Shown: positions 10,401 to 29,010 of the stretch, piece after piece
How the letters are laid out: each line of letters opens with the position of its first letter
How positions within the stretch are numbered: the first letter of the stretch is position 1
Virus record (IMG/VR): IMGVR_UViG_3300010354_000258
Coordinates: 1-35,559 of that record
DNA from: a virus
Reading direction: 5' to 3' (one strand)
Length of the DNA stretch: 35,559 nt
Position numbers and translations under genes: made by a program
Notes under the pieces: model-generated
Databases searched by the model: none
What the model saw: only the letters and a program-made list of their open reading frames with translations
What the model was told of the DNA's origin: nothing

Positions 10401-12631
10401 AGTACAAGACCGTTACTGCCGGCACCGGCATCAGCATTTCGCACACCGCCGGGGCGATCACGATTACCAATACGTCGCCGAGTTCCGGCGGCACGGTAAC
10501 GTCAGTTACGGCGTCTTCTCCACTGGCCTCCAGCGGCGGCACCGCGCCGGACATTTCGCTTGGCACCGTAGGCGTCGCCAACGGAGGAACCGGCCAGACC
10601 TCGTTCTTGGCAGGGCAGATCCTGTACGCCTCTGCAACTACCACGATTGCCGGATTGTCCGTAACAGCGGGCGGCATGCTGTACGGCGGCGCTACGGCCC
10701 CAGCCTACACGGCCACAGCCGACCTGACGTGGGACAACACGAACAAGCGACTGGGTATCAGCCAGTCAAGCCCGTCGTACAAGCTGGCCGTGACTGATAA
10801 CAACGCCGCATTGACAGGCAGCAATAGGGTTGTGTCCCTCACTTCCACTATCTCCAATGCGGCTAGTAATTCCAATACTCAGTACGGCCTTTACAATTTC
10901 CTGTCCGTTGGCAATAACATTACGGGCACGCCGCACGGCATTTACAGCATCATCGACAAGTCCGCAGGGGCAAATACCGCTAATCTTAATGCAATTTCTG
11001 GCCAAGCCACCATGGGCGTGGCAGGCATTACAGTAACAGCCGCTGCGGCGCTGCGGGCAGTATCTCCCGCTGTCACGCTCGGCACGTTTACTAATGCTTA
11101 CGGCCTGTACATTGAAACTCAAGACACGGCTAATGTCGGCACAGGCTATGGTATTTATCAAGCCAGCACCGCAGACCGAAATATCCTTGCTGGTAATGTT
11201 CGTATCGGCAGTACATCGGTTGCAACAAACGCACTGGACGTAACCGGCGCCGCTACGGTCTCCGGTAACTTTGTTGTAGACAGCACTACTTTGTATGTGG
11301 ACGCCACTAACAATCAAGTAGGCATTGGGATTGTACCTTCGTTCCCATTCCATTTTGATGTTTCTTCCACGGACACGGCGGCCAACGCTTTCAAGCTCCG
11401 GTCAAACTGGACGTTGGCTCCTGCAAGCGCGTCTGCGGTTTCTCAGTACATGTCGTATCAAACGGCAACGACGACAGGCGCCAATTTTACAGGCAACCTA
11501 ATCGGCCATAACGTCGAGGTGAGCCACAATGGATCGTCTAATGTTTCCGCGTATATTGCCTTGCTAGGAAAAGTTGATCTGGAAAACACCGGCAATATGA
11601 CAGCGGCCTACGCTTTTTACGCAGACTCCCCGGGCAGAACAAGCACCGGCACGATTTCGACAGCGGTCGGTTTGTATGTGGCGTCACAGACTGTCACAGG
11701 CGTTACTACGCCTCTTGGTATTTACCAAGTCGGCACTAGCGATAAGAACATTCTTGCAGGCGGCACACGGATCGGTAGTACTTCGGCTCCCACAAACGCG
11801 TTGGACGTGACGGGTGCCGTTACAATTTCCGGCAACCTGACTGTTGATAGCCCTACGTTCTTTGTCGATTCCTCCAACAATCGCATCGGCGTCGGCACCC
11901 TTTCGCCGTCAGTGTTGGCTGATTTCGTCCAAAGTCTTGCGGGTGACGCTCAGATTAGGCTGAACAACAGTAACTCTGCGACTAATGCCCGCATGACTTA
12001 TCTGCTTGCCAACGGCTCTGTAAATGCAGGCTTTGAGCTTACAGGAGCCAGCTTCACCACCTACCCCAGTCGGGCAAAGGTTTACAACGGTGGCGCAGGC
12101 GGTCTTGTCATGGAGTCCGACAACGCTGCCGGATTTTTCTCGGTGTCCACGGCGGCTGTCTACCCCACGGGCGAGCGGCTGCGAATCAACTCTAGCGGTG
12201 TTGTTATTATCGGCGGTGGTGAGTCTGGTACGACTCCGACCGGCAATACCCTTCGCGCACCGTCCGGTACAGGTACCAACATCACTGGCGGCACCCTGAC
12301 AATTACGGCAGGCAACGGTACTGGTCTGGGCGGCAGCGGCTCGATCATCATGCGGACGGCCCCGGTCGGTGTGACAGGAAGCACCGCTAACACGATGGTG
12401 GATCGAGTCACGGTTACCCGAGCGGGAAGCGTGGTTATTGGTGATGCGGCGCTGGCCACAAACGCTACTGACGGGTTCTTGTATATCCCTTCGATGTCTG
12501 GCACACCCACAGCCGCGCCGCCCACAGCACATACGGGCCGAGTACCTATCGTGTTTGACACCTCGTCTTCCAAACTTTGGGTTTACAATACAGCTATTGC
12601 CGCGTGGCGGCAGATTGCACTTACCGTTTAG
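7412..12631 (+). CDS. Very large repeat-built tail fibre / receptor-binding protein
   Basis: I choose ATG 7412 rather than the in-frame TTG at 7391; either overlaps the previous gene. The 1739-residue protein has a short N-terminal domain with a heptad-like stretch (about 25-50), a Gly-rich hinge (about 66-76), then six 10-residue TYLTQ-type units (residues about 144-203). Much of the rest consists of duplicated modules: two copies of a FDGSNLYFTP/TRKTVAFTDSN module, three copies of a YGLY-x-YGIYQ/ILAG/RIGS/NALDVTGA module, and repeated NGGTG motifs. The C-terminus ends SKLWVYN...W, as in many fibre tips. I see no S74 intramolecular chaperone motif. It probably trimerises and contacts the host surface. 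Confidence 0.85.
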   Translation: MAGNINPTSWIRVPNGGTPELPSVYTAIREALQESADAAKNLQSQINGLKPSTSTSTTTTIISGDGGGGGSGGGSVTSVGLDLSTEAAAVFGVTGSPVLTAGTITLGLDTQTANTVFAGPTTGMADEPTFRALVATDIPDISATYLTVATAASTYLTQSAAASTYLTQSAAASTYLTQANAASTYLTQANAATTYLALSGGTLTGRLNLPASVATTNGAKFNLGSGATPTSFADGDVWVTATGINVRVAGSSLRLFPYEGGQFDGTVTTKAGTTSAAGLILASGTNLTTPAAGAVEFDGSNLYFTPSSTRKTVAFTDSNITGTAANVTGVVALTNGGTGKSLTAADGGIVYSDADSMEILAPTATAGQVLRSGASAAPSWSTATYPATTAINQILYSSAANTIAGLATANNSVLVTSGTGVPSLAADIPTGVTIGTKYIYRVDGTDVAIADGGTGASTAVAAFNALSPLTTLGDTLYNDGTNDVRLAGNTTTTRKFLRQVGTGSASAAPVWDTLTAGDIPSLSGTYLPLAGGTMSGAIDMNSQGITNAGLSTFKGIRSYSSSGGGSGTNGRYAPVVIVSITGNFANVGLTLAVSDGSSSGDSTALAAALVRLRVKQQNVMGGAPYVDVDVVAGASDDWDTDSFIFITTTNTVSLTEGTLYIEQPYQFTNITASVIDYAVSANASYTLCTASTTPTNTLVAPASLPAGTQTKPVAMMLGGASILRFLTGSAERMRVTSAGNVGIGTAPSYRFHVDQTYTSTAGNITTRFGSSVSPAATNANTQYGLFNTLTMNANATGGGRALYSIVQHRGASNTGVLSAGLFGIDNNDATTMGSTISDAVAIYALTPAQNAMGGTITNSYGLYIQAQSGTNITNSYGVYQTGTSDINYFAGRVGIGTTSPGTLLHLGAGTATVAPFRLTSGINLTTAAAGSMEFDGSNLYFTPATTRKTVAFTDSNITGTAANVTGTVATGNGGTGLTSIGSSNQVLGVDSGATALEYKTVTAGTGISISHTAGAITITNTSPSSGGTVTSVTASSPLASSGGTAPDISLGTVGVANGGTGQTSFLAGQILYASATTTIAGLSVTAGGMLYGGATAPAYTATADLTWDNTNKRLGISQSSPSYKLAVTDNNAALTGSNRVVSLTSTISNAASNSNTQYGLYNFLSVGNNITGTPHGIYSIIDKSAGANTANLNAISGQATMGVAGITVTAAAALRAVSPAVTLGTFTNAYGLYIETQDTANVGTGYGIYQASTADRNILAGNVRIGSTSVATNALDVTGAATVSGNFVVDSTTLYVDATNNQVGIGIVPSFPFHFDVSSTDTAANAFKLRSNWTLAPASASAVSQYMSYQTATTTGANFTGNLIGHNVEVSHNGSSNVSAYIALLGKVDLENTGNMTAAYAFYADSPGRTSTGTISTAVGLYVASQTVTGVTTPLGIYQVGTSDKNILAGGTRIGSTSAPTNALDVTGAVTISGNLTVDSPTFFVDSSNNRIGVGTLSPSVLADFVQSLAGDAQIRLNNSNSATNARMTYLLANGSVNAGFELTGASFTTYPSRAKVYNGGAGGLVMESDNAAGFFSVSTAAVYPTGERLRINSSGVVIIGGGESGTTPTGNTLRAPSGTGTNITGGTLTITAGNGTGLGGSGSIIMRTAPVGVTGSTANTMVDRVTVTRAGSVVIGDAALATNATDGFLYIPSMSGTPTAAPPTAHTGRVPIVFDTSSSKLWVYNTAIAAWRQIALTV
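7841..8020 (+). repeat. 30-bp tandem repeat in fibre gene (TYLTQ units)
   Basis: Six in-frame 30-bp units, starting at 7841, 7871, 7901, 7931, 7961 and 7991, encode TYLTVATAAS, TYLTQSAAAS twice, TYLTQANAAS, TYLTQANAAT and the diverged TYLALSGGTL. The DNA has diverged at many third positions while the peptide is kept, pointing to selection on the protein, probably a trimeric shaft, rather than recent slippage. Confidence 0.85.
8297..8325 (+). repeat. 29-bp exact direct repeat, copy 1 (fibre gene)
   Basis: This 29-base segment is identical to 10208-10236. It encodes the EFDGSNLYF core of a duplicated fibre module and sits in the same reading frame in both places. It contains the internal inverted repeat TTCGAC-GG-GTCGAA. 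The surrounding about 200 bp are also similar but diverged. Such a repeat could support recombination between modules, with loss of about 1.9 kb in frame. Confidence 0.85.
10208..10236 (+). repeat. 29-bp exact direct repeat, copy 2 (fibre gene)
   Basis: Second copy of the 29-base sequence found at 8297-8325, in the same codon frame, 1911 bp downstream. Flanking codons for TRKTVAFTDSNITGTAANVTG are also shared with synonymous differences. Confidence 0.85.
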
Positions 12632-12841: not shown

Positions 12842-14181
12842 TGGCTTACCAAACCGACCCCACGACAGGGGAGCGATACTACGTCCCTGACGTGTATCGC
12901 CCGACCTACCGGCTGACGGACGACTTCTTCGGGTACCGCAAGGGCACCGCTGTCGATCCGAACGCCGGGCTGTCCGGCTTGGTATCCGGGGCAGGCACAG
13001 GCGCTGCATTAGGTAGCGCGATCATGCCCGGTATCGGCACTGCTGTGGGTGCCGGTCTGGGTGGCCTTATCGGTGGGTTCGCTGGTTACTTTGGCGGCGG
13101 CCAAGAATTGGAAGCCACGCAGCGTGAACAGGAAATCCAAGCACAACTGGCTTTGGAAAACCGCCGTCGCATCTTGCAAGGGTTCCGGGATCGGGAAGCT
13201 GCGATTGAAACACAGCGTCAGATCGCCGAGCAGATGAACCCGGGCGAGGCGATTTACGGAACCGAAGGGCGAGCCGGGATGTTGCAGATGCAGCAGGCCC
13301 AGCTTGCCCAGCAGATGGCGGCACAAGGCGCTCGTAATCGCGCCTCATTGGCATCCCGAGGGCTACTGGGCAGTGGGATGGAGGCCGCCACTTCGGGGGC
13401 ACTGGCGGGCCAGCAGGCCACCGCACAGGCCCAGCTTCAGGCAAACGCTCTGACGCAGTATCAACAGCAGATGCAAGAGCGTCAGCAGCGAATCGCCCAG
13501 ACCACCATGCAGCAGGCAGAACTGTCTGCCGAGCGTGAACGGGTGCTGGCGGATATCAACACCGCGATGGCACAGGGCGATATGGCGAAGGCTCGCCAGC
13601 TTGCTGCGCGTAACCAAGCCTTGCTCCAAGCGGGGTTGCAGGGTCTTTCGGTTGGCCTTGGGGCGTACCAGCAGTCTCAGGATCGAGAACTGGCCAAGAC
13701 GCAGCGCAAGGAGGATCAGGAGTTCCTTGCCAAGCTGTTTGGTGGCGGAGGTGCGGCGGCTGCGCCCGCTGCGGCGACGAGCGCTGCCGCACCTGCTGCG
13801 GCGGCGGTGACAAACGCTGCCCGAGGGCTGATGGCCACTCCGGGGCCGAACACTGTCACGTACGATCCGTATGCGACGCCGGTTGAGCGCCCTCGACCCA
13901 TGCTTCCCGTCCCGGTTGGAGGACTCGACCAGCCGCTGATTATGAGGTCGTCCGGTAAACTCGGAAACATGGAATTCGTCCCGGCGATTTATCCCGGCGC
14001 CCTTTCGCAATTAGGACCATACAGCGAAGACTCGCCCGGCACGACTAGTGGCGCGTCTATTCCTTACATGCAAGGGGGTCAAGGAATGCGAAATCCCATT
14101 CCGGGTCCGCTTAATGTTCCGAAGACCCCGAAGTCTAATAAGAAGGCATCTTCCGGCTTGTCCGATCTGGTGTACGGCTAA
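12841..14181 (+). CDS. Putative internal virion (ejection) protein, glycine-zipper and coiled coil
   Basis: A 446-residue protein that starts at the TAATG overlap. After about 45 residues there is a Gly/Ala-rich hydrophobic stretch (about 47-82, with GTGAALGSAIMPGIGTAVGAG and GGLIGGFAGYFGGG) of the glycine-zipper kind that inserts into membranes. It is followed by a long Gln/Ala/Arg-rich helical region (about 85-285), an Ala-rich linker (about 297-325) and a Pro/Gly-rich tail. This architecture and its position before a giant virion-type gene match the first of the internal/ejection proteins of podoviruses (T7 gp14 position). That is architecture-based inference with no sequence match claimed. 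Confidence 0.7.
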   Translation: MAYQTDPTTGERYYVPDVYRPTYRLTDDFFGYRKGTAVDPNAGLSGLVSGAGTGAALGSAIMPGIGTAVGAGLGGLIGGFAGYFGGGQELEATQREQEIQAQLALENRRRILQGFRDREAAIETQRQIAEQMNPGEAIYGTEGRAGMLQMQQAQLAQQMAAQGARNRASLASRGLLGSGMEAATSGALAGQQATAQAQLQANALTQYQQQMQERQQRIAQTTMQQAELSAERERVLADINTAMAQGDMAKARQLAARNQALLQAGLQGLSVGLGAYQQSQDRELAKTQRKEDQEFLAKLFGGGGAAAAPAAATSAAAPAAAAVTNAARGLMATPGPNTVTYDPYATPVERPRPMLPVPVGGLDQPLIMRSSGKLGNMEFVPAIYPGALSQLGPYSEDSPGTTSGASIPYMQGGQGMRNPIPGPLNVPKTPKSNKKASSGLSDLVYG

Positions 14182-15539
14182 TGGCACAGCAAGAAGAAGA
14201 TCAGCTAGGGCTGCTGCCCGCGATGTCCATGGGACCATCCGGGTACGTGCCACCGATGGTGGCCTCGCTGGGCTCCGGTCTGGCGGGCGTTGCGTCACAG
14301 CAGATGGCGTTGCAGCAGCAACTGGACCAGAAGGAAGAACAGCGTCGTAAGGAGCGCGAACAGAAGGCGCAAGAACGCGGCAAGCTGATGCTTGAGGCTG
14401 GAAAGAGCGTCCGCGACGCTGATATGGCCGCACGTGGGTTGGGGCTTCAGTTTGGAGCCGAACTTATCAAACCTGAAGCGTTCAAGCAGAGTTTTGAGCG
14501 TGAGACCCAAACCGAAGCGCAAGACCAGTTGCTGAAGTTGCTGGGGCTTAAGGGACTTACTACCCCTTCCGCACAGGCTCTCATTGAGTCGTATCGCCCT
14601 AGATTGTCACCAGCCATGCAGGGTGTTCAGTTGGACATCCAGCCGGACTTGCCGCAAAAGCGCGCAGCTACCATGAGAGAACTGAAGAGCGCCGAGGACA
14701 ATGCAAGAGCGCTTCTTACACAGAACCGTATTTCGCAAGACGAGTTCAATCGCGTATCCGGTGCCATAGCCAACTTGAGAACAGGCGTGTCCACCGCTGC
14801 GGATGCGGAAGCCATGGACTCCTTGATGGCTACCGGTCGATCGAACCTGCTCTTGAAGACAAGAACGCCGAGTAAACAGAAGTTCAGGGTGGGTAATGGA
14901 TTGCTCATCAAGTACGAGGAGAGAATCGATCCCGCCACGGGTAACACGATAGTCGTGGAGCTTAGCCGCGAAGACCAGTCCATGAATGCAGCCCGCCGGG
15001 CCGCCCTTGGGCTTGCAGGCGAGCGACTCGCAATTGCGAAGCAGAATCTTAAGTTGGCGGGACAGCGGCTTGGGCTGGCCACGGACGCAGCGGACAGGGC
15101 GGATGCCACTTCGGTTCTGGCTGTGCTTCGTGCGGTAGACCCTGTGTTTCGTAACGAGAGGGGTGCCTACAACGAGGCGACAAAGCGGGCCAAGGCGCGA
15201 CTGGCTCAGAAGCACAGCGCAGGTCTTAACTCGATCAATCCGGTCGAGAAGGCGCGAGCTAACGCCGCTGTGGACGAGGAGCTTCCCGTGGCCATTGAAG
15301 AAGAACTGTCCACTATGGGACAGAACGCACTCAGTGTTGAGAACCTGACAAAGAATCCCGCCGCTGTAAAGTACTTGCGCAGCTTCCTTAAGAGCAAGAC
15401 GGCCCTGCCGGCGGCCAAAGCTGCGACAGGAGCGGCAGGAGCGCGTCCTGTGAGAGGCCGAGTGCCCGTGCCGGCGGGGCCTGTCCGTCCGCCCACCACC
15501 GTCAATATCACCATTCCGCGGTTTAAGCCACGGGGGTAG
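14181..15539 (+). CDS. Putative internal virion protein, coiled coil
   Basis: A 452-residue protein beginning at a TAATG overlap. Residues about 35-85 are a highly charged coiled coil (QQQLDQKEEQRRKEREQKA). The rest is mostly helical with few aromatic residues, and the C-terminus (about 405-450) is a Pro/Ala/Arg linker. There is no signal peptide, membrane span or catalytic motif visible. It occupies the second place of a three-gene set before the giant protein, comparable in position to T7 gp15. Role is inferred from context. Confidence 0.68.
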   Translation: MAQQEEDQLGLLPAMSMGPSGYVPPMVASLGSGLAGVASQQMALQQQLDQKEEQRRKEREQKAQERGKLMLEAGKSVRDADMAARGLGLQFGAELIKPEAFKQSFERETQTEAQDQLLKLLGLKGLTTPSAQALIESYRPRLSPAMQGVQLDIQPDLPQKRAATMRELKSAEDNARALLTQNRISQDEFNRVSGAIANLRTGVSTAADAEAMDSLMATGRSNLLLKTRTPSKQKFRVGNGLLIKYEERIDPATGNTIVVELSREDQSMNAARRAALGLAGERLAIAKQNLKLAGQRLGLATDAADRADATSVLAVLRAVDPVFRNERGAYNEATKRAKARLAQKHSAGLNSINPVEKARANAAVDEELPVAIEEELSTMGQNALSVENLTKNPAAVKYLRSFLKSKTALPAAKAATGAAGARPVRGRVPVPAGPVRPPTTVNITIPRFKPRG

Positions 15540-15577: not shown

Positions 15578-18500
15578 ATGCGGCCTAACATCTCGCCGAC
15601 CCCGGGCGACCCGGGCGACCTTCTGGCAACCGGCTCTGTCGGCGGTCTGATGCCTGCCGTCACGCCGACGCCAGAACCTACGCCGCTGTTCACGCCGCAG
15701 CCGCTTACGCCTCCTCCGGGTCTTGCGGCCACCCCAAAGGCAACACCCACGCCTGCGGTGCCGAAGCCCTCACCCGCGCCTGCGCCCCCGAAGCCGCTTA
15801 AGTCTCCCGCCAAGCCAGCCGCGATTGATAACGTCAAGCTGTTTGATGAGGCCATGACTGGCGTGGCCTCACGTCTTCGCACGTCCGCCAAGCAAGCGCC
15901 GTACATGCAGGCGATGGGGGACAACCTCGACGAGCTTCGCAAGACCACGCTCGGCAACCGCAAGGACCCACGCTCGTTGGTGAAGTTCGGTCGTACGCTG
16001 GGTGAGTACGTCAACTACGTCGAGAGTACTGTTCTTCAGCAATTGGATGAGCAGGCCGACCTGTTCGATCCTGCTGAGTTCACCAAGTTCCGAACCAATT
16101 TCACGCTTGGCATGGAGCCCCTCAAGAATATTGCTAGGCTCGCCCTCAAATCAGCGTCGCCTACGTTCTCGCCCGATGTCGAACTGACCAAGGCAGAACA
16201 GGCGCTGATGAACTGGAAGGTCGGCGCGATGGCGTCCGGCATGCCCTTGGTCACGGGCACGTCCTACCTTGCTGAGAAGGTGACAGGCGAGCCCTTTACG
16301 ACAGGCCCGTTGTTTGAGCCAGACCCGACGATTCAGGGTCTGGGCCAGCTTGCGGGCCTTACTGCCGAACTGCTTGGAACTCGCGGTGTGGGTGTGGCCG
16401 CCACGGTTGCCAGTGCGCCGTTCAGGGCGGTTGCCGGTACGGGCATGCTAGCCGGCAAGTTGGTAGGCAAGGGCGCTGAAGCCATTCTTCGCAAAGTCGC
16501 ACCGAATCTGGCGCAAAAGACCATTGGCGGCAAGGCTATCATTGCGCCAGCCGCCGCACAGGGCGCTCGGGTCGCCCCGGGGCTTGTATCCGACATCGCA
16601 GGTGTGGCCGGCTCGGGTGCTGCGATTGCGGGAATGGGTGCCCTTGTTCCGAATCTGGTGGAAACGTCGCGTCCCATGATGACGACGTACGATCCGACGA
16701 GTGGACAACTGATTCAGGAACGAGCGCCGAAGAAGTCGGCGGAGGAGATCCGCAAGACCACCCTCATGGGCGGCGTGTCTGCCGGTCTTGGCCGCGCTGC
16801 CCTTGCGCCGTTTGCGCCGGCAACGACAAAGCTCGGGCAGGCTGCACAGGAGGTGGCCGAAGAAGCGGTCAGCACGGTGCCCGACTTCGTGCAGGCGTAC
16901 CTTACAGGCGAGCCGCTGGACCTCGTGGCCACCATGGCCGGCATCCTTGCATCCGGGCCGATTGGTGCGGCGGTGGGCGAGGCTCCTGCTGCCGGAGCGG
17001 CGGACACGACTACGACTCCTCCTGCGCCTTCCGAGGCCGATTTGCAAAACGCCGTCAACAGCGCTCTCGGTGTGGGTGCGGTGTCGCCGGAACCGACAGC
17101 GGCCCCCGCGCCCGCCGCTCCGCGCCCTGTGCCTCCCGATGTTCTTCGTCGAGTCGCCGCAACTCGGGCCAGTCTCGAACAGCAGCGCACGGTTTATGAG
17201 GCGTATCTTGCGGACCCGGCTGCACCGGAAGATGCCAAGACTGTTGTCCAAGCCACATTGGAAGGTATTCAGCAGCAACTCACTCGTATGGATGAGCGGC
17301 TGGCATCTTTCGGGATTGACCCTAACAACATCCAGCCGCCTCCCGCTGCGGTCGAGGCCAAGGGTCTTACGCCTCCTCCCGCCAGTGTGTCGGGTGGCAA
17401 TGTCATGTTCGGCCTTCCGCGAGGCGGCGGGAACTTCCCCGTGCAGTTTGCGGACGATGTGGACAAGGCCCTGTACCTCCTCCAGAGCAAGCAGGTTGGG
17501 TCACAGGCCAAGAAGAAGGAAATCCTGAACTGGCTGATGTCCGTCACGGGCAAGACCGAGGCAGAACTTCTGGAGGCGTCAGACCTCGTTCGGGATCAAG
17601 TGGCGCTTACCGCCGCTCGCCGACCCAAGACTGAACTTGGTCCAATCGTCAGCCCCAAGTCTCCAATTACTTTCCAAGCTCCCGAAGCGCCTGCGACGGA
17701 GACTACTGCGGGGCGAGTGCCGCCTACGCCGCAAGCTCCGGCAGGCCAAATCCTGATTGAGGACCCTGTTCAGCTTCAGTTTGCACGGAAGCTCGTTCAG
17801 CGAGTTCGCACTGGGTTCAAGGGCGTAGATACCGCTGAGAAGGGCGACCGTCGCCTGCGTCGGCTGGTGGACGATAACGGGCACACCAACGCATCCGCAG
17901 CCGACCTCAAGGCCACGTACGGATTTACGGATGAAGACTTGGCGGTGCTGGGTCTTGGTCAGCCGGGCGGCGCACCTCCCCTTCCTGCCCAGACGATGCC
18001 CACGTTGCCTGAAGCGCCTGAAGCACCTGCTGCTGAAGCGCCTGTAACGCCCGAAGCTCAGGCCCCCGAAGCAGCACCCGTCACGCCCGAGGCTCCTGCG
18101 CCTGCATTCAATGTGGATGCGTACGCCAAGGCTCTTGCGGATCTGGTTGAGGCCGGTGACGACGCCGCGTTTACTCAGCTTACGCAGACCATCCCCGAGG
18201 GTCAGGAGGCTGCGGTAAACGACGCCCTGACGGCAGAAATGTCGGCTCGTGGGCTGGGAGAAGCGGAGGCCGCGCCTGCGGAAGCCGCGCCCGAGGCTCT
18301 CACCCCGAACACCATCGAGGACTACGTTCGTAAATTTGAAGCCATCCGCAATACAAATGTGGACGAGGCAATTCGTTTGTTTAACGAAGCGCTAGACAAG
18401 TTTGGCGAGGATGAGTGGAATCGTGTTTATAAAGCCTCTGGTACCGAAGTCGCGGATCAAGGGCAGCCTGCGCCCCCGGGCGTAACGCCGGAAGCTGCGC

Positions 18501-21500
18501 CCGAGGCAGCACCTGAGCCGACCGAACCCGAGGCCCCGGCAGTTACGGCGGAAGATTACCGCGAAGCCATGGTGGCCGCTGCTGAGGCCAATGACCCAGC
18601 GGCTCTTGGCAGGATCGTTACGGATGCCCTCAAGAACAACATTCCGATTTCGGAAGTCCGGGCGATTGTTCAGTCGTTGCCCCCGATTCAAGGCGACCCT
18701 CAAAAGGCTCAGCAGTTCGCCCCTGACCTGTCACCTGCGGGTGAACGGGTGTACCGAGCGATTCTGGCTCAGGTAGCCAACGAGTTCCGTGGCATGGCGA
18801 TGCTGGACGATACTGCCATTCCCCGGTATCTGAAGCGGCTTTCGAATGCCATTGTTGACCCTGCACTTCGTAAGGCGGTCATGACACTGGCCAAGCGAGC
18901 CATCGAAGCCGTGCGAGCGGAGGCGAGGGTTGCGCAAAGCGTGCCCAAGGCGTCCCGTCTGGATGAGATGGCGCAAGCCAGTACGGAGAACGTACTTGAT
19001 TTGCTGCCTCGGCTGCAAGGCGTGAGTTTCGAAACCGCCGTCGCACAGGTTGAAGCCTACCGCCGCGAACAGCAGCTACAGGAAGTGGATCGTATTCGGG
19101 GCATTTTCACTCGGGCAAGCGGCATTCCGGATCGCATTCGGGATCAAGTGCTGCGGTTGCTCGACCCAAATAACGACGACCTTATCAATATTGCCGAGGC
19201 AATTGGTACGGGCGACATCAAAATTATTTCAAAGGAAGGCCAGCCGCAGCGGGCCAAACTAAAGATTGATATTGACAAGGCTCTTACGTTTAGCAAGTCC
19301 GAGCGGCTACCTGCTGTAAAGACTGCGTTGAAGGATCTGGAAAAGACTTTCAACGCGGTCATGGTGCGGGGAGGCGCGGACAGCGATGACCTTGTGGCCG
19401 CGCTGTGGCAACTGAAGGCCCGGCAACAAGAAGGTAATACCTACCGCTTGCCGTTCTCTACCGACAACGTTTTCAGTTCGCAGCGTGGGTACGGGCCGGG
19501 CTTGATTCGCCTCGATGATGACTCCCTGCAAGCGATTGTCGATGCCGATAATCCAGAAACGCAGGCTGCTCGATTGGAGAAGGCACGTACACAAGTTGGG
19601 GGTTCTGCTACCCCGGCTGAGCGGATTCAGTGGACAACCCGTCAAATAGAGGAAGAGAAGTCGCAAGCCGCCGCCGCTCGTTTAATCTTGGAATACCGCC
19701 AGTTCTTGGACGACCTGCTGCCGACTGAAACCGAGACCACGTTCGATGCCATCGAGGTTCCCGAGCCGGGCGAGTTGCCTCCGGGTGCCCAGATGGAAGA
19801 AGGCCCCGAAGTGATGGAAGCGCCCATGCCGCAGCGGGCTCCGGTCCCGGGCGCGTGGTGGCAGTCCCGAATGCAGGCGCTGATGGACGAGCGGAACGCC
19901 AAGCGCCAGCAGCGCGAAGCCATGGCCGGCAATGCTCGGGTACCTATGGCCTTCAGCGGGCGTCAGTTCCCGCCCGGATTCTTCGCTCGCTGGAACGGCA
20001 ACCGCAATCCTGAAAAGTCCTTCCTTGAGATCGGCACCGTCGAGGACGAGGGCTCCAAGACCGTCGGCAAGCTCAATGTACTCACCAACCCGAACGACGA
20101 CGGTGTGCATCCGTGGCGTTACGTGGATGGGACGGGCAAGAAGACGTACGGCGCAATGACCCCGGAGGAATACGGCAAGCTGTCGGACGACCTGTACGAG
20201 GGCGGCGCTCAGGACATGCAGCAGGCGGCGTATATGGACATGCTGCGGCAGCGCCATGCCACCGCCCAGATGCAGGCGCAGTCGGACAACCCGGAAGTCC
20301 AAGCTGCGATTGGCCGAATGAAGGCCGCGTTGCAGCGGTACATGCCCGGCTTCCTTGCCTTGGTGGGCATCGGCGCTGCGGCGTTCGCGCCCGAGGGCAC
20401 GCTGCCCGCGATGCTGCTGGCGGGCACGGTGGGCGCAGGACAGCCTGACTCTGTGGACTTGTTCAAGATGTTGACTACGGCTGAGGGCCGAGCCGCCATC
20501 AAGAAGGACTTTACGCAGTTCTACACCGACCTGCGCGTTATCGCTCAGGCTGCAAGTAACATCCAGACCCTTCGTCCTGACCTTTTAAAGGCTCGACCCA
20601 GCGACAACTTCAAGGCGTGGGCGGCCACGTTCCGTGGGTTGCTGGCTGCAAAAGAGGGCCGAGCCTTTGCGCAGGCGGTGCCGACGGCTGCACTGGAAGG
20701 CGTGTACGCGGACTACGACTTTAATCACGCGTTTGCGGTCAAGCCTGTACTAGATCCTACAGATCCGAGCTCGGCGAAGCCATTGCCGTTGTACAAGCAG
20801 CCTCGGGAGCTTTTCCCGACATTTCCTCCGGCAGACCAACTGCCCGATCCTGCGGAAACCTCGTACATACCGGGGAAGCGCGGCGCAGAAGACGCAAAAG
20901 ACGATATTGACAGGGCGATGGGCAGCATCCGATCCGCACAATGGGTTTTGTCTGGCGTTAAAAATCGTCTTGAAAACGACGATAAGCGTGCTGAGAAAAG
21001 CCGTCAAAAACTCGGCGAAGCCATTGCCGTTGTAACCGCCAAGTACGGTATTCCAAGCATACAGCGACCCGGTTCGATAGATGCGTTTCGTCGTCTTGTT
21101 GTGGCAACCATACAAAGACGCCCCGATGTGATGCTGGGGCTTGAACGGTTTGGTGTATTCAGAAGCGCCATGGGGCTTTCCCAGAGTCTGTATCTTCTCC
21201 CAGAAGACCCAGCGCTGGACGACGTGGAGGAGTCCGCGGTTGCCCTGTGGAATGCATTTCAAGGTATCGATCTTGATCCGAGCACGCTTAAGATCGAAGG
21301 AGGCGCAGAAGTAGCAGCGGGGGATTTCATTACGCGCCTCGCCCGCGCTAAGCAGAGTCTGCCACCTTCTATAAACCTTGGGTCTGCTGACCTTCTGGGC
21401 CGCATCAAGAAGGTCGCGCAGGACCTGCAAGATTTAGACACGTCGGCCCTTGGGGAAGTCACTCGTAGGAATCTTGTAAACCAGATCAAAGATTGGCAAG

Positions 21501-24500
21501 CATTGGCGAGTATTGCGGATGTCATGGCGCCTGTATTGGAGGTCGCCGACGCCCTCAAGGGCACTGATTTAGCGCAAATGCATACTTGGCCGGCTGAGCG
21601 CGAACTTTTACTCAAGCAAGCGGAACGCGCTGAATCGGAGTTGCAACGGGCTCGAAACACGTTACTTGACATGTTGACAAGTTCAAAGGTTTTGGGACGT
21701 TACGCAAATCCAGATCGGATCGATCCTCGCCAGACTGTACCTGCTCATACTCGACCTGTTCTTTACCACAACACCACCCTAGATGGTTTTATCACTATGG
21801 CGGCATTGGGGGAGATGGGAACACTGGAGCCCGGGAACCTCGCATATGGCCATAGCGGTATGGCGTTTGTGCCCCTTGTGACACGAAGCCAAAAAGAAGA
21901 AGAAGTGACTCAGTTGGGACTGGTATCTATGTCCCGTAGGGCTAAGTTCTTGGCGCCGGGACTCGATAAAAGACCTATCCGACTTCGATTTAATCGGGAT
22001 TCCTTAGCTCAGACCTACCCCATCACTGCTTACGAGTGGTACCGGCCTAAAATCCAAAGCACTACTTTCGCGTCTGAGAAAGCATCTCGGCTGTTTGAAA
22101 ACCTAGCGAGACGAGACTCGGGTCTTTTATCGAGAGAGGAACTTGAGGCGTATCGCAATAGTACCGCAGCCGAACGCGCACAGTTGAATACTCCCGTGTC
22201 CTCTTCAGACATGGGCGATTACTTGTGGAAGGTCGCGTTTGAGGGGTCCGGACTTCAAAAGCCGACGCCGGAGGAAGCGGCAAGGATTGCGGAACAGCGC
22301 CGCGCTTTAGAGGCAGAGTATGTTTACCCTAACATGAACATGCGCGATGCCTTTAAAGTAACCACATGGGATGATATAAAGTGGGCTCGAATGAGCCAAC
22401 TGAAGATTACAGACCAACTTGATACAAATATGCAATCCATTCTAGAGGCTGCGGCACAAGGCAAGACTCACAAGTACGCACCTGCGCTGTACGATTTGCT
22501 TGTTGCCTACATGGGTATGCCTAATTTTTCTACCGCACAGTATGCGCTGGCAATGCCATACCTGACTTCGTACCTAGATCAGTTAGCGGATCAGGCAAAT
22601 ATGCCTCGCGTGTCAGACCCCGCGTTCTTGGCTAAGTATTATCGACCGGGTGAAGCGCCCCCGATCGCGAAAACGATCATTTTAGAATACGCCAATCAGC
22701 TTGACCCACCTGTAAAGATGCCGCCTCAAATGGGACGGTATCGAGGCGCAGGTAAAATGGAATTGCGGAACGAAATTAAACAAGAGCGCGAAGCGCTGGA
22801 AAAGACCGGATATCGCAGGAGCAAACTAAAGTTCATCCCGGGCACGGAAAAAGATGAAAATCGGCGCGAGGCGGAGGATGCTATTCAAGGTCCAATTATG
22901 AATTGGATGCAGCACGTGGAAGGCATTGACATGCCACGGGCTGAGTACGATTACCTACGGTCAGAGTACGACTATCTGAGTCAAAAGGCGAACGACCCAA
23001 ACTTTGGAGCACTGCCTGACACCACCCGTAATAAGATTTTAGCCAACGCGAACGGCATTTTCCAAATTCTGACTCACCCGGGACTGCGGGTGTCGAAGAA
23101 AAAGGAAGACATCGGCAACCTGTTTGCAGCCGCTCCTGTCGGATTGGCAGGCGCGGAGGGAGCGGGTGTCGAGGGCCTTGCCGTGGGTGGAGCCGCCTTT
23201 GCGTACGCGATGACTCCATATCTGGCGTCCGCTGTGGAGGCTGTCAACAATACGGCTTACATGCGGAAGTTGGAATCCGACCTTCGGGCTTCAGCCGCCC
23301 CAGTTACTCCTCCCAGTGCTTCCCCGGCGCTGGCTGCGCCATTGCCTCGTACGCGGCTGGTGTCGCCTGTTGAATCCGTCACGGCAGACCCTGCGGTGGA
23401 AGCAGCATTGCAACAAGCACAGGCTACCGCACCGAAGTCCGCAGCAGCACGCGCCGCCCGGATGGTAGCAGGCGCGGCGGAGCGGGTGGCTTCCCCCATC
23501 CTGCGGTCGGTTGCGGGTATCAACCGCATTGTGCGCACGCTGGGCGAGACAGCGGTCGCCAAGACCTTGAGCCTGTTCGGTGCCAAGCTGAGGACCGGAA
23601 TCAACCCCGATACCTTGCGGTCAGAGACAGGCACGGCTGTGGCAGATGCCATCGGTCGGACTGCTGATGTCATGCAGACCCTTGGGTCCAATCTTTGGAA
23701 TGCCGCGACGGGCCGTCAGGGGCTGACTGTCCCGAAGGTGCTAAACGACGTGCGCGACCAGATGCACCGGATGATGGCCGCAGGTGAACAACAAGCGGTC
23801 CGCATCGAAGAGTATCTGGCCACAACCTACGACACGAACACCCGGGCGTTGCTTGAAACTATCCTTGATGCGGGGGGCGACTTGCCCCAGCCGTACGCTT
23901 CCGACGATGTGCTGAAGGCATTCGTCGCGTCGCTTCCGACAATGGCCAATGACTTGCAGACCATGGGCGTACTTACCAAGGACCAGATTGCCCGTATGGA
24001 CCGTTTGATGGTGCGGTCAATGTCGAAGCGCACGCCGGGGGATGTAGCCCCGATTCGGGATGCTCTGCTCAATCTGATTGATGCGGCCAAGGGTCAAGCC
24101 GGGCCGCCCGATCAATCCAAGTTCTGGATGGCGCGGGGCAATCGGCAGAATATTCCTATCGCGGAGTTCAACAAGTACGCGGGTCGCGTTGTCGATCCCG
24201 TGACGGGCAAGGTGTCGTACGACCCGTGGCAGGTCATTCAGGCCACACCGGACACATTGACGCTGCGGAACTCGACGGGCACTGTCACGGTCAGCAACCA
24301 GTTCGACAAGGCTACGGGCGAGATCGAATCCGCCAACTACGTCCGGTACAACCCGAAGACCAAGCAGTACGAGAATCCGTGGACCGAGATTCGTGGTGAC
24401 AAGTCTGTGATGACTGCGGTCCGAGATTGGACTCCGGCAGAGTTGGATAACTACGGCATTGTCCGCGACATCTCCACGGCAGCTTTCAAGACGCTTTCGA

Positions 24501-26260
24501 TGTGGAACAAGTTCACGGCCCGAGGCGTGATGTACGACTTCATTGCCAACAATCCGACCATCGACGGGCAGATGATCGCCATTCCCGCCAATGCTGTTCG
24601 GCGGTCGCAGGATCTGCAAGGCGGCGAGCAGAACTGGAGTCCGCCACTGGGCAAGGAGTGGGGCGCGTTGCAGGGCTTCCGCGTGCGCAAGGACGTGCTG
24701 GAGTTCGTGTCCAATGCGCAACAGGACGGCCCCATCCTGCAAATGCTGGAAGCGTCCAGCCGGGAATACAAGCGCACGCGCACGACGCTCAGTGTCAGCT
24801 ATGCGATGAACAACTTGCTGGGTAACGCCGCCATGTTGATGCTGAACGGCGGCCATTTAAGTGCGGTGCCGGAGGCAATGGGCATCCTGCTTGACCGGGG
24901 CGACCTATTCTTGGAGCTTCAGCGCAACGGCGGGTACGAAGGCACGACCTTCCAAGAGATGGTTCGGGAGCGTCAGCGGGCTGGCACCAATCTTCCTAGC
25001 CTTACCGAGAAGACGATGGACTTCGTGGGCGGGGCGATGGACCGAGCCACCAGCGGCCTCATCAAGGAAGTCAACAGCCGTCTTGGAGGCAAGCCGCAGA
25101 CCGCCGAGAACATCATGGCGACGATCCGGGATGTGGCCAGCACCGCTAACCCCACAGTCTTCAACAAGTTCGTGGACGACTTGTTCCGCACAGCACTGGC
25201 AGTCAGCGTGCTGAAGGAAGGTGGTTCCGTCCAAGGCGCTGCCCAGCGCATGCGGGAAGATATGTACAACGTGATGGTCCCGCGCACATCAGCGGGACGA
25301 CTCGCCAACGCAGTATTCCCGTGGGCGTCGTACCCGATGTGGGCGATTTCCAATACGCCTCGCGTCTTCTTGCAGAACTGGCACGTGGCCGGCGTCAACA
25401 CCTTGATGGCGGCAGCGGCGGCGGCCTTGACCGAGGCGCTGGCGTTTGGCGAAGAAGATGAGGAGGAGCGCAAGCGGCGGCGTGCCGCAGAAAAGGCCAG
25501 CGCCTATAACCAGACCAACATCCCATTCCTGCCGGAGCGTCTGTATCTTGGCAAGGACGTGACGATGGAGTTGGGCACGGCCAACCCGTTTGAACCCATT
25601 GCTCAAACAATCGAATTGGGCCGTCGATTTGCCGAGACTGGCGACCTCGGGGAGGCAATGGGCGCCTCGCAGGGCTTCCGGTTCCTGCCTGTACGTCCCT
25701 CTGGTCCGATTGTCGGTGCTGGGTTGCTGTTCCCCGGGGGTCGTAATCCAATGCAGCCGGACAAGCCTGCCCCGTCGGGACTGTCGGACTGGGCGTCATT
25801 CGCGGCTGAGGCAGCGTTCCCGAATCCGACCACGATTGCCCGTGGTCTGATGCGGCAGAACCTGCTGGGTGAACAGCCAGAACTGGAATCAGATGTGGCA
25901 GGTATTGAGCAGCCCAGCGGCCCCTCGGCAGCCCTGTTGCGCGGCCTTGGTCCCTTCAAGACGCGGAACTACGAGCGAGATGTAATGGGTCAGGTGGGTG
26001 CGCTGGGTCGCATCGAGAAGGAGATTCAGTTCCGGATCAACGATATCAACAACCGACTGAAGAACCCACAAAGCAAGAATCCACTGTCGCCCGAGGAGTA
26101 CGAGACCAAGTACATGGACCTGATTGACCTGAAGATGCGACTTCAAGCGCCGATTTACGCTAAGCTGGAGACGCTTGGTGCCATGACTGGCGGTGGCTCG
26201 TCTGGCGCGATTCGACAAGGGCTTGGTACTTCCCCGCCCGGCCCTTCTCCGTTAAGGTAG
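15578..26260 (+). CDS. Giant 3560-residue virion/polyvalent-type protein
   Basis: One uninterrupted 10.7-kb frame. The first 85 residues are Pro-rich. Hydrophobic Gly/Ala segments (about 254-308, 331-365, 453-475, 1588-1622, 2517-2558) could cross membranes after ejection. PEAPE-type linkers (about 805-845, 961-992) separate helical domains. Around residue 2059 RPVLYHNTTLDGF resembles the opening strand of ADP-ribosyltransferase-like domains, but no full catalytic triad is clear. Residues about 3068-3432 (NNLLGNAAML, FPWASYPMWAISNTP, IPFLPERLYLG) resemble the large-polyvalent-protein-associated domain LPD38. Such giants are packaged and injected with phage DNA. I found no lytic transglycosylase motif. 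It starts behind its own promoter and lacks a Shine-Dalgarno site. Gene reality is certain; domain calls are tentative. Confidence 0.8.
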   Translation: MRPNISPTPGDPGDLLATGSVGGLMPAVTPTPEPTPLFTPQPLTPPPGLAATPKATPTPAVPKPSPAPAPPKPLKSPAKPAAIDNVKLFDEAMTGVASRLRTSAKQAPYMQAMGDNLDELRKTTLGNRKDPRSLVKFGRTLGEYVNYVESTVLQQLDEQADLFDPAEFTKFRTNFTLGMEPLKNIARLALKSASPTFSPDVELTKAEQALMNWKVGAMASGMPLVTGTSYLAEKVTGEPFTTGPLFEPDPTIQGLGQLAGLTAELLGTRGVGVAATVASAPFRAVAGTGMLAGKLVGKGAEAILRKVAPNLAQKTIGGKAIIAPAAAQGARVAPGLVSDIAGVAGSGAAIAGMGALVPNLVETSRPMMTTYDPTSGQLIQERAPKKSAEEIRKTTLMGGVSAGLGRAALAPFAPATTKLGQAAQEVAEEAVSTVPDFVQAYLTGEPLDLVATMAGILASGPIGAAVGEAPAAGAADTTTTPPAPSEADLQNAVNSALGVGAVSPEPTAAPAPAAPRPVPPDVLRRVAATRASLEQQRTVYEAYLADPAAPEDAKTVVQATLEGIQQQLTRMDERLASFGIDPNNIQPPPAAVEAKGLTPPPASVSGGNVMFGLPRGGGNFPVQFADDVDKALYLLQSKQVGSQAKKKEILNWLMSVTGKTEAELLEASDLVRDQVALTAARRPKTELGPIVSPKSPITFQAPEAPATETTAGRVPPTPQAPAGQILIEDPVQLQFARKLVQRVRTGFKGVDTAEKGDRRLRRLVDDNGHTNASAADLKATYGFTDEDLAVLGLGQPGGAPPLPAQTMPTLPEAPEAPAAEAPVTPEAQAPEAAPVTPEAPAPAFNVDAYAKALADLVEAGDDAAFTQLTQTIPEGQEAAVNDALTAEMSARGLGEAEAAPAEAAPEALTPNTIEDYVRKFEAIRNTNVDEAIRLFNEALDKFGEDEWNRVYKASGTEVADQGQPAPPGVTPEAAPEAAPEPTEPEAPAVTAEDYREAMVAAAEANDPAALGRIVTDALKNNIPISEVRAIVQSLPPIQGDPQKAQQFAPDLSPAGERVYRAILAQVANEFRGMAMLDDTAIPRYLKRLSNAIVDPALRKAVMTLAKRAIEAVRAEARVAQSVPKASRLDEMAQASTENVLDLLPRLQGVSFETAVAQVEAYRREQQLQEVDRIRGIFTRASGIPDRIRDQVLRLLDPNNDDLINIAEAIGTGDIKIISKEGQPQRAKLKIDIDKALTFSKSERLPAVKTALKDLEKTFNAVMVRGGADSDDLVAALWQLKARQQEGNTYRLPFSTDNVFSSQRGYGPGLIRLDDDSLQAIVDADNPETQAARLEKARTQVGGSATPAERIQWTTRQIEEEKSQAAAARLILEYRQFLDDLLPTETETTFDAIEVPEPGELPPGAQMEEGPEVMEAPMPQRAPVPGAWWQSRMQALMDERNAKRQQREAMAGNARVPMAFSGRQFPPGFFARWNGNRNPEKSFLEIGTVEDEGSKTVGKLNVLTNPNDDGVHPWRYVDGTGKKTYGAMTPEEYGKLSDDLYEGGAQDMQQAAYMDMLRQRHATAQMQAQSDNPEVQAAIGRMKAALQRYMPGFLALVGIGAAAFAPEGTLPAMLLAGTVGAGQPDSVDLFKMLTTAEGRAAIKKDFTQFYTDLRVIAQAASNIQTLRPDLLKARPSDNFKAWAATFRGLLAAKEGRAFAQAVPTAALEGVYADYDFNHAFAVKPVLDPTDPSSAKPLPLYKQPRELFPTFPPADQLPDPAETSYIPGKRGAEDAKDDIDRAMGSIRSAQWVLSGVKNRLENDDKRAEKSRQKLGEAIAVVTAKYGIPSIQRPGSIDAFRRLVVATIQRRPDVMLGLERFGVFRSAMGLSQSLYLLPEDPALDDVEESAVALWNAFQGIDLDPSTLKIEGGAEVAAGDFITRLARAKQSLPPSINLGSADLLGRIKKVAQDLQDLDTSALGEVTRRNLVNQIKDWQALASIADVMAPVLEVADALKGTDLAQMHTWPAERELLLKQAERAESELQRARNTLLDMLTSSKVLGRYANPDRIDPRQTVPAHTRPVLYHNTTLDGFITMAALGEMGTLEPGNLAYGHSGMAFVPLVTRSQKEEEVTQLGLVSMSRRAKFLAPGLDKRPIRLRFNRDSLAQTYPITAYEWYRPKIQSTTFASEKASRLFENLARRDSGLLSREELEAYRNSTAAERAQLNTPVSSSDMGDYLWKVAFEGSGLQKPTPEEAARIAEQRRALEAEYVYPNMNMRDAFKVTTWDDIKWARMSQLKITDQLDTNMQSILEAAAQGKTHKYAPALYDLLVAYMGMPNFSTAQYALAMPYLTSYLDQLADQANMPRVSDPAFLAKYYRPGEAPPIAKTIILEYANQLDPPVKMPPQMGRYRGAGKMELRNEIKQEREALEKTGYRRSKLKFIPGTEKDENRREAEDAIQGPIMNWMQHVEGIDMPRAEYDYLRSEYDYLSQKANDPNFGALPDTTRNKILANANGIFQILTHPGLRVSKKKEDIGNLFAAAPVGLAGAEGAGVEGLAVGGAAFAYAMTPYLASAVEAVNNTAYMRKLESDLRASAAPVTPPSASPALAAPLPRTRLVSPVESVTADPAVEAALQQAQATAPKSAAARAARMVAGAAERVASPILRSVAGINRIVRTLGETAVAKTLSLFGAKLRTGINPDTLRSETGTAVADAIGRTADVMQTLGSNLWNAATGRQGLTVPKVLNDVRDQMHRMMAAGEQQAVRIEEYLATTYDTNTRALLETILDAGGDLPQPYASDDVLKAFVASLPTMANDLQTMGVLTKDQIARMDRLMVRSMSKRTPGDVAPIRDALLNLIDAAKGQAGPPDQSKFWMARGNRQNIPIAEFNKYAGRVVDPVTGKVSYDPWQVIQATPDTLTLRNSTGTVTVSNQFDKATGEIESANYVRYNPKTKQYENPWTEIRGDKSVMTAVRDWTPAELDNYGIVRDISTAAFKTLSMWNKFTARGVMYDFIANNPTIDGQMIAIPANAVRRSQDLQGGEQNWSPPLGKEWGALQGFRVRKDVLEFVSNAQQDGPILQMLEASSREYKRTRTTLSVSYAMNNLLGNAAMLMLNGGHLSAVPEAMGILLDRGDLFLELQRNGGYEGTTFQEMVRERQRAGTNLPSLTEKTMDFVGGAMDRATSGLIKEVNSRLGGKPQTAENIMATIRDVASTANPTVFNKFVDDLFRTALAVSVLKEGGSVQGAAQRMREDMYNVMVPRTSAGRLANAVFPWASYPMWAISNTPRVFLQNWHVAGVNTLMAAAAAALTEALAFGEEDEEERKRRRAAEKASAYNQTNIPFLPERLYLGKDVTMELGTANPFEPIAQTIELGRRFAETGDLGEAMGASQGFRFLPVRPSGPIVGAGLLFPGGRNPMQPDKPAPSGLSDWASFAAEAAFPNPTTIARGLMRQNLLGEQPELESDVAGIEQPSGPSAALLRGLGPFKTRNYERDVMGQVGALGRIEKEIQFRINDINNRLKNPQSKNPLSPEEYETKYMDLIDLKMRLQAPIYAKLETLGAMTGGGSSGAIRQGLGTSPPGPSPLR
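20770..20793 (+). repeat. 24-bp exact direct repeat read in two frames, copy 1
   Basis: Identical to 21011-21034, 241 bases further on. Here it is read to give S-S-A-K-P-L-P-L-Y. Because 241 is not a multiple of three, the second copy is read in another frame (L-G-E-A-I-A-V-V). The repeat lies at the start of a segment of the giant gene with lower GC and different codon choice. Confidence 0.85.
21011..21034 (+). repeat. 24-bp exact direct repeat read in two frames, copy 2
   Basis: Second copy of the 24-base sequence at 20770-20793, in a different codon frame of the giant gene, here encoding L-G-E-A-I-A-V-V. Identity in two frames cannot be explained by protein conservation. Confidence 0.85.
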
Positions 26261-26264
26261 AAAC

Positions 26265-26543
26265 ATGTCCGACGAAGCATTGGTGATCACCCGGCAGGAG
26301 TGGCAATCCTTGCAGGAGAAGCTGAACCGTATCGAAGCCGCCATAACTGGCGGCCTTGATGGGGCTAGCGGCGGCCTGCGCGGGCGTGTGGAAGGCATCG
26401 AGCGTGAAGTGTCGGCGGTACGCGCACAGGTTGCAGCGCTGGAAGAAAGCCGCCGTTGGGTTGTGCGATTGGTGTCGGGTGCGGTTCTGACCACGGTGGT
26501 ATCGGCAATCATTGCCGCCATTCAGATGATGGGTAAGCACTGA
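26265..26543 (+). CDS. Small coiled-coil/transmembrane lysis protein (XhlA/holin-like)
   Basis: A 92-residue protein with AAGG a few bases before its ATG and a TGATG overlap with the endolysin gene. Residues 10-64 form an amphipathic helix with a Gly-rich break (29-40), and residues about 66-88 form one membrane span (VVRLVSGAVLTTVVSAII) with a short charged tail. Length and layout match XhlA-type holin accessory proteins. Placement directly before a cell-wall peptidase supports a role in membrane lesion formation. It could alternatively be a minor virion membrane protein. Confidence 0.7.
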   Translation: MSDEALVITRQEWQSLQEKLNRIEAAITGGLDGASGGLRGRVEGIEREVSAVRAQVAALEESRRWVVRLVSGAVLTTVVSAIIAAIQMMGKH

Positions 26544-27004
26544 TGGCCAAGCTGTCCGAGAACTTTGGCCTGCACGAGTTCCTTGCCCACGACGATCCGA
26601 ACAAGCCTGACCTCGTGGCCATGCGGTATCTGGCCCAGCTTTGCGAGGATGTGCTGGAGCCTTTGCGGGCACACCTGAAGTCGCCTATCATCATTACGTC
26701 CGGGTTTCGGAGCCCGAGCCATAATGCCAAGATCGGCGGTGCCAAGAACTCCCTCCACACGACAGGGATGGCTGCTGATATTGCTGTTGGGCAGCTTGAT
26801 AAGCAGATCCGTGTGGCTGCATTTCTGTCAAAGATTCCAGAAGTCGGCGGCATCGGTTTGTACGAAGCCAAGGGCATCATCCATGTTGATATCCGCCCCC
26901 ACGTCGGTGTCCCGGCGACGTGGCTGGAACGCGCCGATGGCAAGTATGTTCCCCTACCCCTGACACTCAAGGCCCGTATCAAGCTGGCCGGAGGCAAGGT
27001 CTGA
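26543..27004 (+). CDS. M15-family D-Ala-D-Ala carboxypeptidase-type endolysin
   Basis: A 153-residue protein with the zinc peptidase motifs of family M15 (Peptidase_M15_3 type). It has SGFRSPSHN at 53-61, SLHTTGMAAD with predicted zinc ligands His72 and Asp79, and HVD with His114. It should cut peptide cross-links of peptidoglycan at the end of infection. There is no signal peptide, so it needs the neighbouring membrane proteins for release. Length is typical of single-domain phage M15 endolysins. Start overlaps the upstream stop and its stop overlaps the next ATG (TGATG both sides), forming a compact lysis operon. Confidence 0.93.
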   Translation: MAKLSENFGLHEFLAHDDPNKPDLVAMRYLAQLCEDVLEPLRAHLKSPIIITSGFRSPSHNAKIGGAKNSLHTTGMAADIAVGQLDKQIRVAAFLSKIPEVGGIGLYEAKGIIHVDIRPHVGVPATWLERADGKYVPLPLTLKARIKLAGGKV

Positions 27005-28237: not shown

Positions 28238-29010
28238 TGGCTAAGAACATGCCGCCTGAAAAGCCCGCTGCCAAGAGTGCGCCGGCAAAGCCTGCTGCAA
28301 AGAGTGCGCCGGCAAAGCCTGCTGCAAAGAGTGCGCCGGCAAAGCCTGCTGCAAAGAGTGCGCCGGCAAAGCCTGCTGCAAAGCCTGTTGCCAAGAAGTT
28401 GCCTACGGCGACAGCTAAGGCACTTAAGTCACGCATCAGCAAGATGGAGAGGACCCGCGCCTACATGCCCGCAGGCCCAATCGGACAGGAAGAGATTCAG
28501 AAAGTACGTCTTGAGCCGGTGGGAAAGCGCAAACTCACTAAGGGCGAATTTTCTGATTATTCGCCTACAACCGGCAAGCCAGTAACTGTTAAGCCGCTTA
28601 AGGCCCGTGCGCGGGCAGCGTCTGAGCCAGCGATGGTCAAAAAGTTGGATCGTTTGATCGGCGGCACCCGTCCGGGCAAGCCTAGAAAATTTGACGTAAC
28701 CGGAGACAAAATGTTTAAGGAGCAATTGCTAAAGCGCAAGGATACTCGCCCGTATATCGAGCAGGAGTTTGACAAACTAAAGTATGGCCAAGGGGAATAT
28801 GACCCCAAGACGAGGAGTATGGCATACGGATTGCGGCCTGAGACGAAGAACATCGACAACGACACCCTGCGGAAAATGGCTAAGGAAAACGCCGCGACCC
28901 GGTGGATGAAGGAGTTGGGGCTACTGAAGTCACGCCCGTCTGGCGGCGGTGGCGGCGGTGGTGGCGGTATGGGTCCCGGTCGTATGGGCAAGCCCCAGCC
29001 CCGTCCGTGA
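28237..29010 (+). CDS. Histone H1-like Lys/Ala/Pro-repeat protein with Gly-rich tail
   Basis: Starts at a TAATG overlap; 257 residues. Residues 11-50 are nine-residue AAKSAPAKP repeats of the kind seen in H1-like tails. A charged middle (about 60-230) has no motif I know and uses more AT-rich codons than its neighbours. A run of nine glycines precedes the end GMGPGRMGKPQPRP. It is strongly basic. The repeat tail suggests non-specific DNA or RNA binding, for example packaging or masking DNA; the middle domain could instead give a specific role. Context: central member of the basic small-protein cluster. Confidence 0.7.
   Translation: MAKNMPPEKPAAKSAPAKPAAKSAPAKPAAKSAPAKPAAKSAPAKPAAKPVAKKLPTATAKALKSRISKMERTRAYMPAGPIGQEEIQKVRLEPVGKRKLTKGEFSDYSPTTGKPVTVKPLKARARAASEPAMVKKLDRLIGGTRPGKPRKFDVTGDKMFKEQLLKRKDTRPYIEQEFDKLKYGQGEYDPKTRSMAYGLRPETKNIDNDTLRKMAKENAATRWMKELGLLKSRPSGGGGGGGGGMGPGRMGKPQPRP
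28267..28386 (+). repeat. 27-bp near-perfect tandem repeat
   Basis: Units at 28267-28293 (one base different), 28294-28320, 28321-28347 and 28348-28374 are otherwise identical, followed by a 12-base partial unit. Each encodes AAKSAPAKP. Identity at third positions means recent slippage or recombination, so copy number may vary between isolates. Confidence 0.9.

Follow-up and report, generated by a model that had tools for sequence, protein, structure and literature searches.

The window analyzed here is the whole of a 35,559-base IMG/VR virus record, which derives from an uncultivated podovirus with SU10-type adaptors. The features discussed below are listed with their positions in the window and the evidence for each; residue numbers refer to the giant protein.

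3-758, + strand: C-terminal part of the major capsid protein, truncated at the end of the contig (PF13252, 4e-9; phrog_334, 2.5e-16)
2578-4178, + strand: two SU10-type adaptor proteins in tandem (PF24175, 6e-12 and 1.5e-24)
7391-12631, + strand: tail fibre-like protein (sequence and position; partly common to the related contig G042)
12841-14181, + strand: ejection protein, 446 aa, Gly-zipper, no cysteine, in a T7 gp14-like slot (weak Gly-zipper and phrog_14486 matches; cysteine count; start of a counterpart in G042)
14181-15539, + strand: ejection protein, 452 aa, no cysteine, in a gp15-like slot (position; cysteine count)
15578-26260, + strand: giant protein, very probably an ejection protein, 3560 aa, no cysteine (open frame; no cysteine against about 33 TGY codons expected; cassette position)
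15578-15832, + strand: Pro-rich N-terminus of the giant, residues 1-85 (31% proline)
16340-17002, + strand: residues 255-475, rich in A and G and including the two strongest hydrophobic stretches; candidate for membrane insertion (hydropathy peaks)
17675-18547, + strand: Pro/Glu/Ala (PEAPE) linkers between short stretches, residues 700-990 (sequence; composition)
21752-22243, + strand: candidate ART-like domain, residues 2059-2222, with H2064 in LYHNT, S2117-x-x-R2120 and E2167-K-A2169-S-R2171 (tested with blocks, HMM and hhalign against a phage family of 17 members)
24788-25372, + strand: residues 3071-3265, a C-terminal region whose likeness to LPD38-type ends, judged by eye, is not significant
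26265-26543, + strand: holin-like protein (phrog_689, 5e-5)
26543-27004, + strand: endolysin (phrog_894, 5e-32)

The genes run from the tail fibre through the 446-aa Gly-zipper protein, the 452-aa protein and the giant to the holin and the endolysin, and a 1090-aa tail protein is among the genes upstream of the giant. This arrangement is an ejection cassette with the giant as its third gene. The giant thereby has the placement of podovirus ejection proteins, whose genes are grouped with those of other internal virion proteins next to the tail genes. In API480 and DS1, which like ctEqG8 were retrieved with a consensus written with the window in view, a large cysteine-free protein also lies directly upstream of the lysis genes, and in ctEqG8 such a protein comes after the tail genes. 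Contigs related to the window through capsid, portal, terminase and g1818 (L002-L005, G027 and G042) have the head genes in common with it, and in G042 this extends to the beginning of the Gly-zipper gene, located behind the fibre. A 140-aa protein encoded at 1818-2240 has 94% identity to its counterpart in G042, compared to 30-70% for most of the other genes common to both. Outside the cassette, a 27-base tandem repeat of 4.9 copies at 28253-28383 encodes AKPAAKSAP repeats in a small basic protein.

The giant is encoded by a single uninterrupted frame with an ATG start, and its GC3 of 0.65 equals that of several neighboring genes. The preliminary description of this frame as encoding 3560 residues matched exactly, and the Pro-rich N-terminus and PEAPE linkers it had reported were also found, the latter with a PEA count of 11 in a tally of PEA/EAP repeats. 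It had further listed several Gly/Ala hydrophobic segments. Such stretches are present, with maxima at residues 340-358 and 449-467, but they are no more numerous than in shuffled copies (five strongly hydrophobic 19-residue segments, shuffled mean 5.2). Therefore, the hydrophobic segments alone are not evidence of membrane spans. One short match, of phrog_5098 (65 aa, function not known), falls on residues 1772-1822 (window 20891-21043; 1e-4).

The most striking property of the giant is the complete absence of cysteine from its 3560 residues, where about 33 would be expected from the position-specific base composition. Together with its 446-aa and 452-aa partners, 4458 residues contain none. 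At the cysteine rate of all other proteins of the window (0.50%), the chance of finding none in 3560 residues is 1.5e-8; at the rate of its head and tail proteins (10 cysteines in 4178 aa), it is about 2e-4. This latter figure is far weaker than the one from base composition, and the loss of cysteine is thus partly common to virion proteins.

We extended the count to other phages. Ejection proteins of T7, P22, N4 and P60, taken together with the like-placed proteins of API480 and DS1, contain four cysteines in 15,289 aa, compared to 136 in 17,020 aa of the remaining proteins of the first four phages (Fisher P about 1e-32). No cysteine occurs in T7 gp15 and gp16, in P22 gp7, gp16 and gp20, in N4 gp50, gp51 and gp52, or in phiKMV gp35-37; T7 gp14 and gp6.7 have one each. 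In T7, P22, phiKMV, LUZ24 and phiA008, the two largest cysteine-free ORFs lie side by side in the region known or presumed to encode ejection proteins; such a pair also occurs in many of the viral contigs examined. With no cysteine in 3560 residues, the giant follows the composition of the T7, P22 and N4 ejection proteins, which is a trend and not a strict rule. A 4592-aa giant in contig G040 (L111-L112, ORF 37795-51570), with a methylase/helicase-like middle, a HELGH motif and an LPD38-type C-terminus, has only four cysteines, T4 Alt, which is injected via a long tail, has three, and the N4 capsid protein has none. Thus, a lack of cysteine is neither an absolute nor a unique sign of an ejection protein.

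For N4-type virion RNA polymerases, the lack of cysteine has been interpreted in terms of having to traverse the tail or the oxidizing periplasm (PMC3715699, PMC2784036, PMC4837373). We did not find a published general statement on the absence of cysteine from ejection proteins in the open literature, which does not rule out that one exists.

Several further observations were made during this survey. In most of the short-tailed phages examined (L198, L199, L200, L202, L203, L006 and G-contigs), the two largest cysteine-free ORFs lie next to each other and encode ejection proteins, known or presumed, and this adjacency could serve as a detector of ejection cassettes that needs only sequence. 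The phiA008 giant (L006:25226-31375; 2050 aa, no cysteine) begins with a staphylococcal-nuclease-like part (PF00565, 8e-7) and contains a HELGH motif. Another cysteine-free giant (L182:2-7924; 2641 aa, 5' end open) precedes an endolysin and has a zincin-like HEMAHW motif and no Pfam match.

No relative of the giant was found in phages, plasmids or viral contigs with the full protein, its C-terminal half, the ART part or the C-terminal part as queries, nor in genome contigs scanned using the capsid. Related contigs reached through capsid, portal, terminase, endolysin and g1818 all stop before the giant. Likewise, no similarity to known ejection proteins was detected in comparisons with PHROGs, phiA008, DS1, ctEqG8, API480 and N4 gp50. 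Apart from the short phrog_5098 match, nothing in Pfam, PHROG, NCBIfam, PADLOC or PDB explained any part of the protein. Ejection proteins are described as mosaic and fast-evolving (PMC8954989); membership of this class does not require sequence similarity, and its absence lowers certainty without excluding membership. A pattern scan of the giant showed no HExxH, RNA polymerase motif B or transglycosylase motif, and Pfam gave no transglycosylase either, in agreement with the earlier remark that no transglycosylase motif is visible. Applied to N4 gp50, the same patterns detected motif B at 1663 and HExxH at 2228.

The C-terminal end had been likened to LPD38. The LPD38 model (PF18857) did not match the giant at E<=10 and matched none of its control genomes either; the same model matches the giant of the terminase relative G008 at 7e-38. 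Alignment of the end to five LPD38-type giants with hhalign gave P = 0.067 in the expected register, and the score of a three-block LPD38 test was reached by 71 of 1000 shuffles. The likeness to LPD38 is thus unsupported in three tests. An AlphaFold prediction of residues 3040-3300 made without relatives was uninformative (pLDDT 44). A separate likeness of the C-terminal end to DS1, ctEqG8 and API480, seen by eye, also failed, with 78 of 1000 shuffles reaching its score.

Near residue 2059, the preliminary description had noted what looked like the beginning of an ADP-ribosyltransferase (ART)-like fold. The stretch in question, RPVLYHNTTLDGF (RPVLYHNTT patch), is present and starts exactly at residue 2059. 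Small phage proteins with LYHxT, SxxR and ExE are mutually similar by BLAST and form a family with invariant H, S, R and E. A consensus query written with the window in view gathered its first six members. For the second set, of 11 members, the query was an actual protein, HRDY3, itself a product of the first search. A three-block profile of the first set scored best in the giant at 2061, 2114 and 2134, exceeding all 1000 shuffles and 875,000 residues of other phage frames. A four-block score was reached by two of 1000 shuffles with the second set alone and by none of 1000 with all 17 members. In the second-set test, the S-x-x-R block was placed at 2097 and not at the 2114-2120 site, so that this block is uncertain, and the LYHNT block contributes the greater part of the signal. 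An HMM from the second set alone did not reach significance (E = 0.07). Alignment of the patch to the family with hhalign scored 23.9 and 25.5, whereas the highest score in 60 shuffles was 18.5. When 35 segments of the giant were compared, the ones that include the patch were alone in standing out.

H2064, S2117 and R2120 can be matched to the H, S and R of the family. The invariant E95, present in every other member examined, aligns with A2169 (ungapped from R2171), and the lack of this glutamate speaks for a domain with a structural or a changed role. The tie of the family to ARTs is weak and was seen in single members (Tox-ART-HYD1, 0.004, and PARP, 0.06, in Pfam). No PDB match was obtained for the family, the curated ART-PolyVal model (PF18760) did not match the giant, and a single-sequence AlphaFold prediction of residues 2050-2240, made without relatives, was uninformative (pLDDT about 36). 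Of the proposed ART-like patch, a weak family match has held up (P about 0.002 with the second set), while that family is itself only weakly linked to ARTs and its invariant glutamate is lacking here. Residues 2059-2222 possibly descend from these small phage proteins.

All other occurrences of the family in our collection are small, free-standing proteins, for the most part from large phages. At least four genes of this family lie near-tandem in Alishewanella phage Slickus01 (L208:1648-5496), and other phages have pairs. By eye, ART-like patches were also seen inside an internal virion protein of P60 (gp34, from residue ~394, VYHATS...GSGVYTAND; L130:8001-8195) and in the L182 giant (IFWHSSP...GRGTYMTT).

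On the basis of its cassette position and of its lack of any cysteine, which parallels the ejection proteins of T7, P22 and N4, we read the giant as an injected virion protein. With high confidence, we propose that it is the largest ejection (internal virion) protein of this podovirus, and we infer its packaging, threading and channel building. The resemblance to injected proteins that had been suggested before is well supported by gene position and the lack of cysteine, both of which the preliminary description had missed. The giant would be packed in the phage head and would travel down the narrow tail as loosely linked beads. Together with the two smaller cassette proteins, it would help to build a transient channel through the cell envelope for the passage of the DNA. 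Without cysteine, no disulfide could form in the oxidizing periplasm during or after threading, which would fit such a passage.

Two other identities of the whole protein are both very improbable. One is a tail tape-measure or other tail-structural protein that is not injected; tape measures can be large, helical and repetitive, and virion proteins are generally cysteine-poor. Against this stand a gene set that is that of a short-tailed phage with SU10-type adaptors, the position of the giant as the last gene of a three-gene cassette adjoining the lysis genes, and a complete lack of cysteine that is like that of ejection proteins. A diverged N4-type virion RNA polymerase would account for the near-identical length (3560 compared to 3500 residues), the absence of cysteine and the low-complexity linker that follows the N-terminal part, as in N4 gp50. 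However, N4 gp50 has both motif B and HExxH and the giant has neither, and it shows no similarity to N4 gp50 or any PDB chain; we regard this identity, too, as highly doubtful.

ART domains within injected giant phage proteins are an existing proposal (PMC5512222, PMC9503650), and the giant may be a further case of such a host-modifying effector. That residues 2059-2222 form an active ART-like enzyme modifying host targets on entry appears unlikely to us. In its favor are the matches by blocks, HMM and hhalign to the family of 17 members, in which H, S, R and E are invariant, and the patches seen by eye in P60 gp34 and the L182 giant; moreover, no other modifying domain is as common in polyvalent proteins as the ART, and packaging is assumed for many ARTs of phages (PMC5512222, PMC9503650). 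On the other hand, E95 falls on A2169, neither Pfam, PHROG, NCBIfam, PADLOC nor PDB gave a match, the ART link of the family itself consists of two weak Pfam matches (0.004 and 0.06) with no PDB match, and the AlphaFold pLDDT was 36. We tentatively entertain, as a possibility short of an even chance, that an unnamed and possibly ART-like family was built into the giant ejection protein and is delivered with the DNA, having lost its invariant glutamate to become a binding pseudoenzyme or to adopt a changed chemistry.

Ejection proteins evolve too fast for similarity searches, and no library explained this 3560-residue example. The absence of cysteine and the gene position picked it out from sequence alone, and did likewise in the other short-tailed phages tested. 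While the idea has been published for N4-type polymerases, our survey suggests that it is valid across podoviruses, and the cysteine criterion could help to detect injected proteins in metagenomes. Should the inner domain be an enzyme that is delivered, entry would include an additional step of host modification.

Compared to known systems, the giant shares with LPD38 (PF18857) polyvalent proteins that it is a giant multi-part phage protein, but it lacks a match to LPD models or a recognized enzyme domain. With the family of HRDY3, Lu11, SCTP-2, Dickeya JA13, Vibrio K566, Slickus01 and others, it appears to share LYHxT, SxxR, V-x-F-x-L-D-x-x-K-L and a downstream E-x-x-x-R-L in the same order. 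Those members are separate proteins, mostly of large phages and often paired or in tandem, whereas here the patch lies inside an ejection protein and E95 is replaced by alanine. T7 gp16, P22 gp16 and phiKMV gp37 are, like the giant, cysteine-free and the largest proteins of an ejection cassette beside the tail genes, but without sequence similarity to it; T7 gp16 has a transglycosylase motif, in contrast to P22-like phages and the giant. The ejection proteins of a reviewed set span 609-1337 aa (PMC8954989), compared to 3560 aa here. N4 gp50 of the Schitoviridae, in contrast, has about 3500 aa and is portrayed in the literature as a string of beads that includes a membrane part and a long linker (PMC12633501). 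The giant differs from it in having no detectable RNA polymerase motifs, HExxH or sequence similarity. Both have no cysteine, a long low-complexity linker, two smaller ejection partners and an N-terminal helical/membrane part, which in the giant is a candidate, and by analogy N4 gp50 is the closest parallel to the giant in size and layout.
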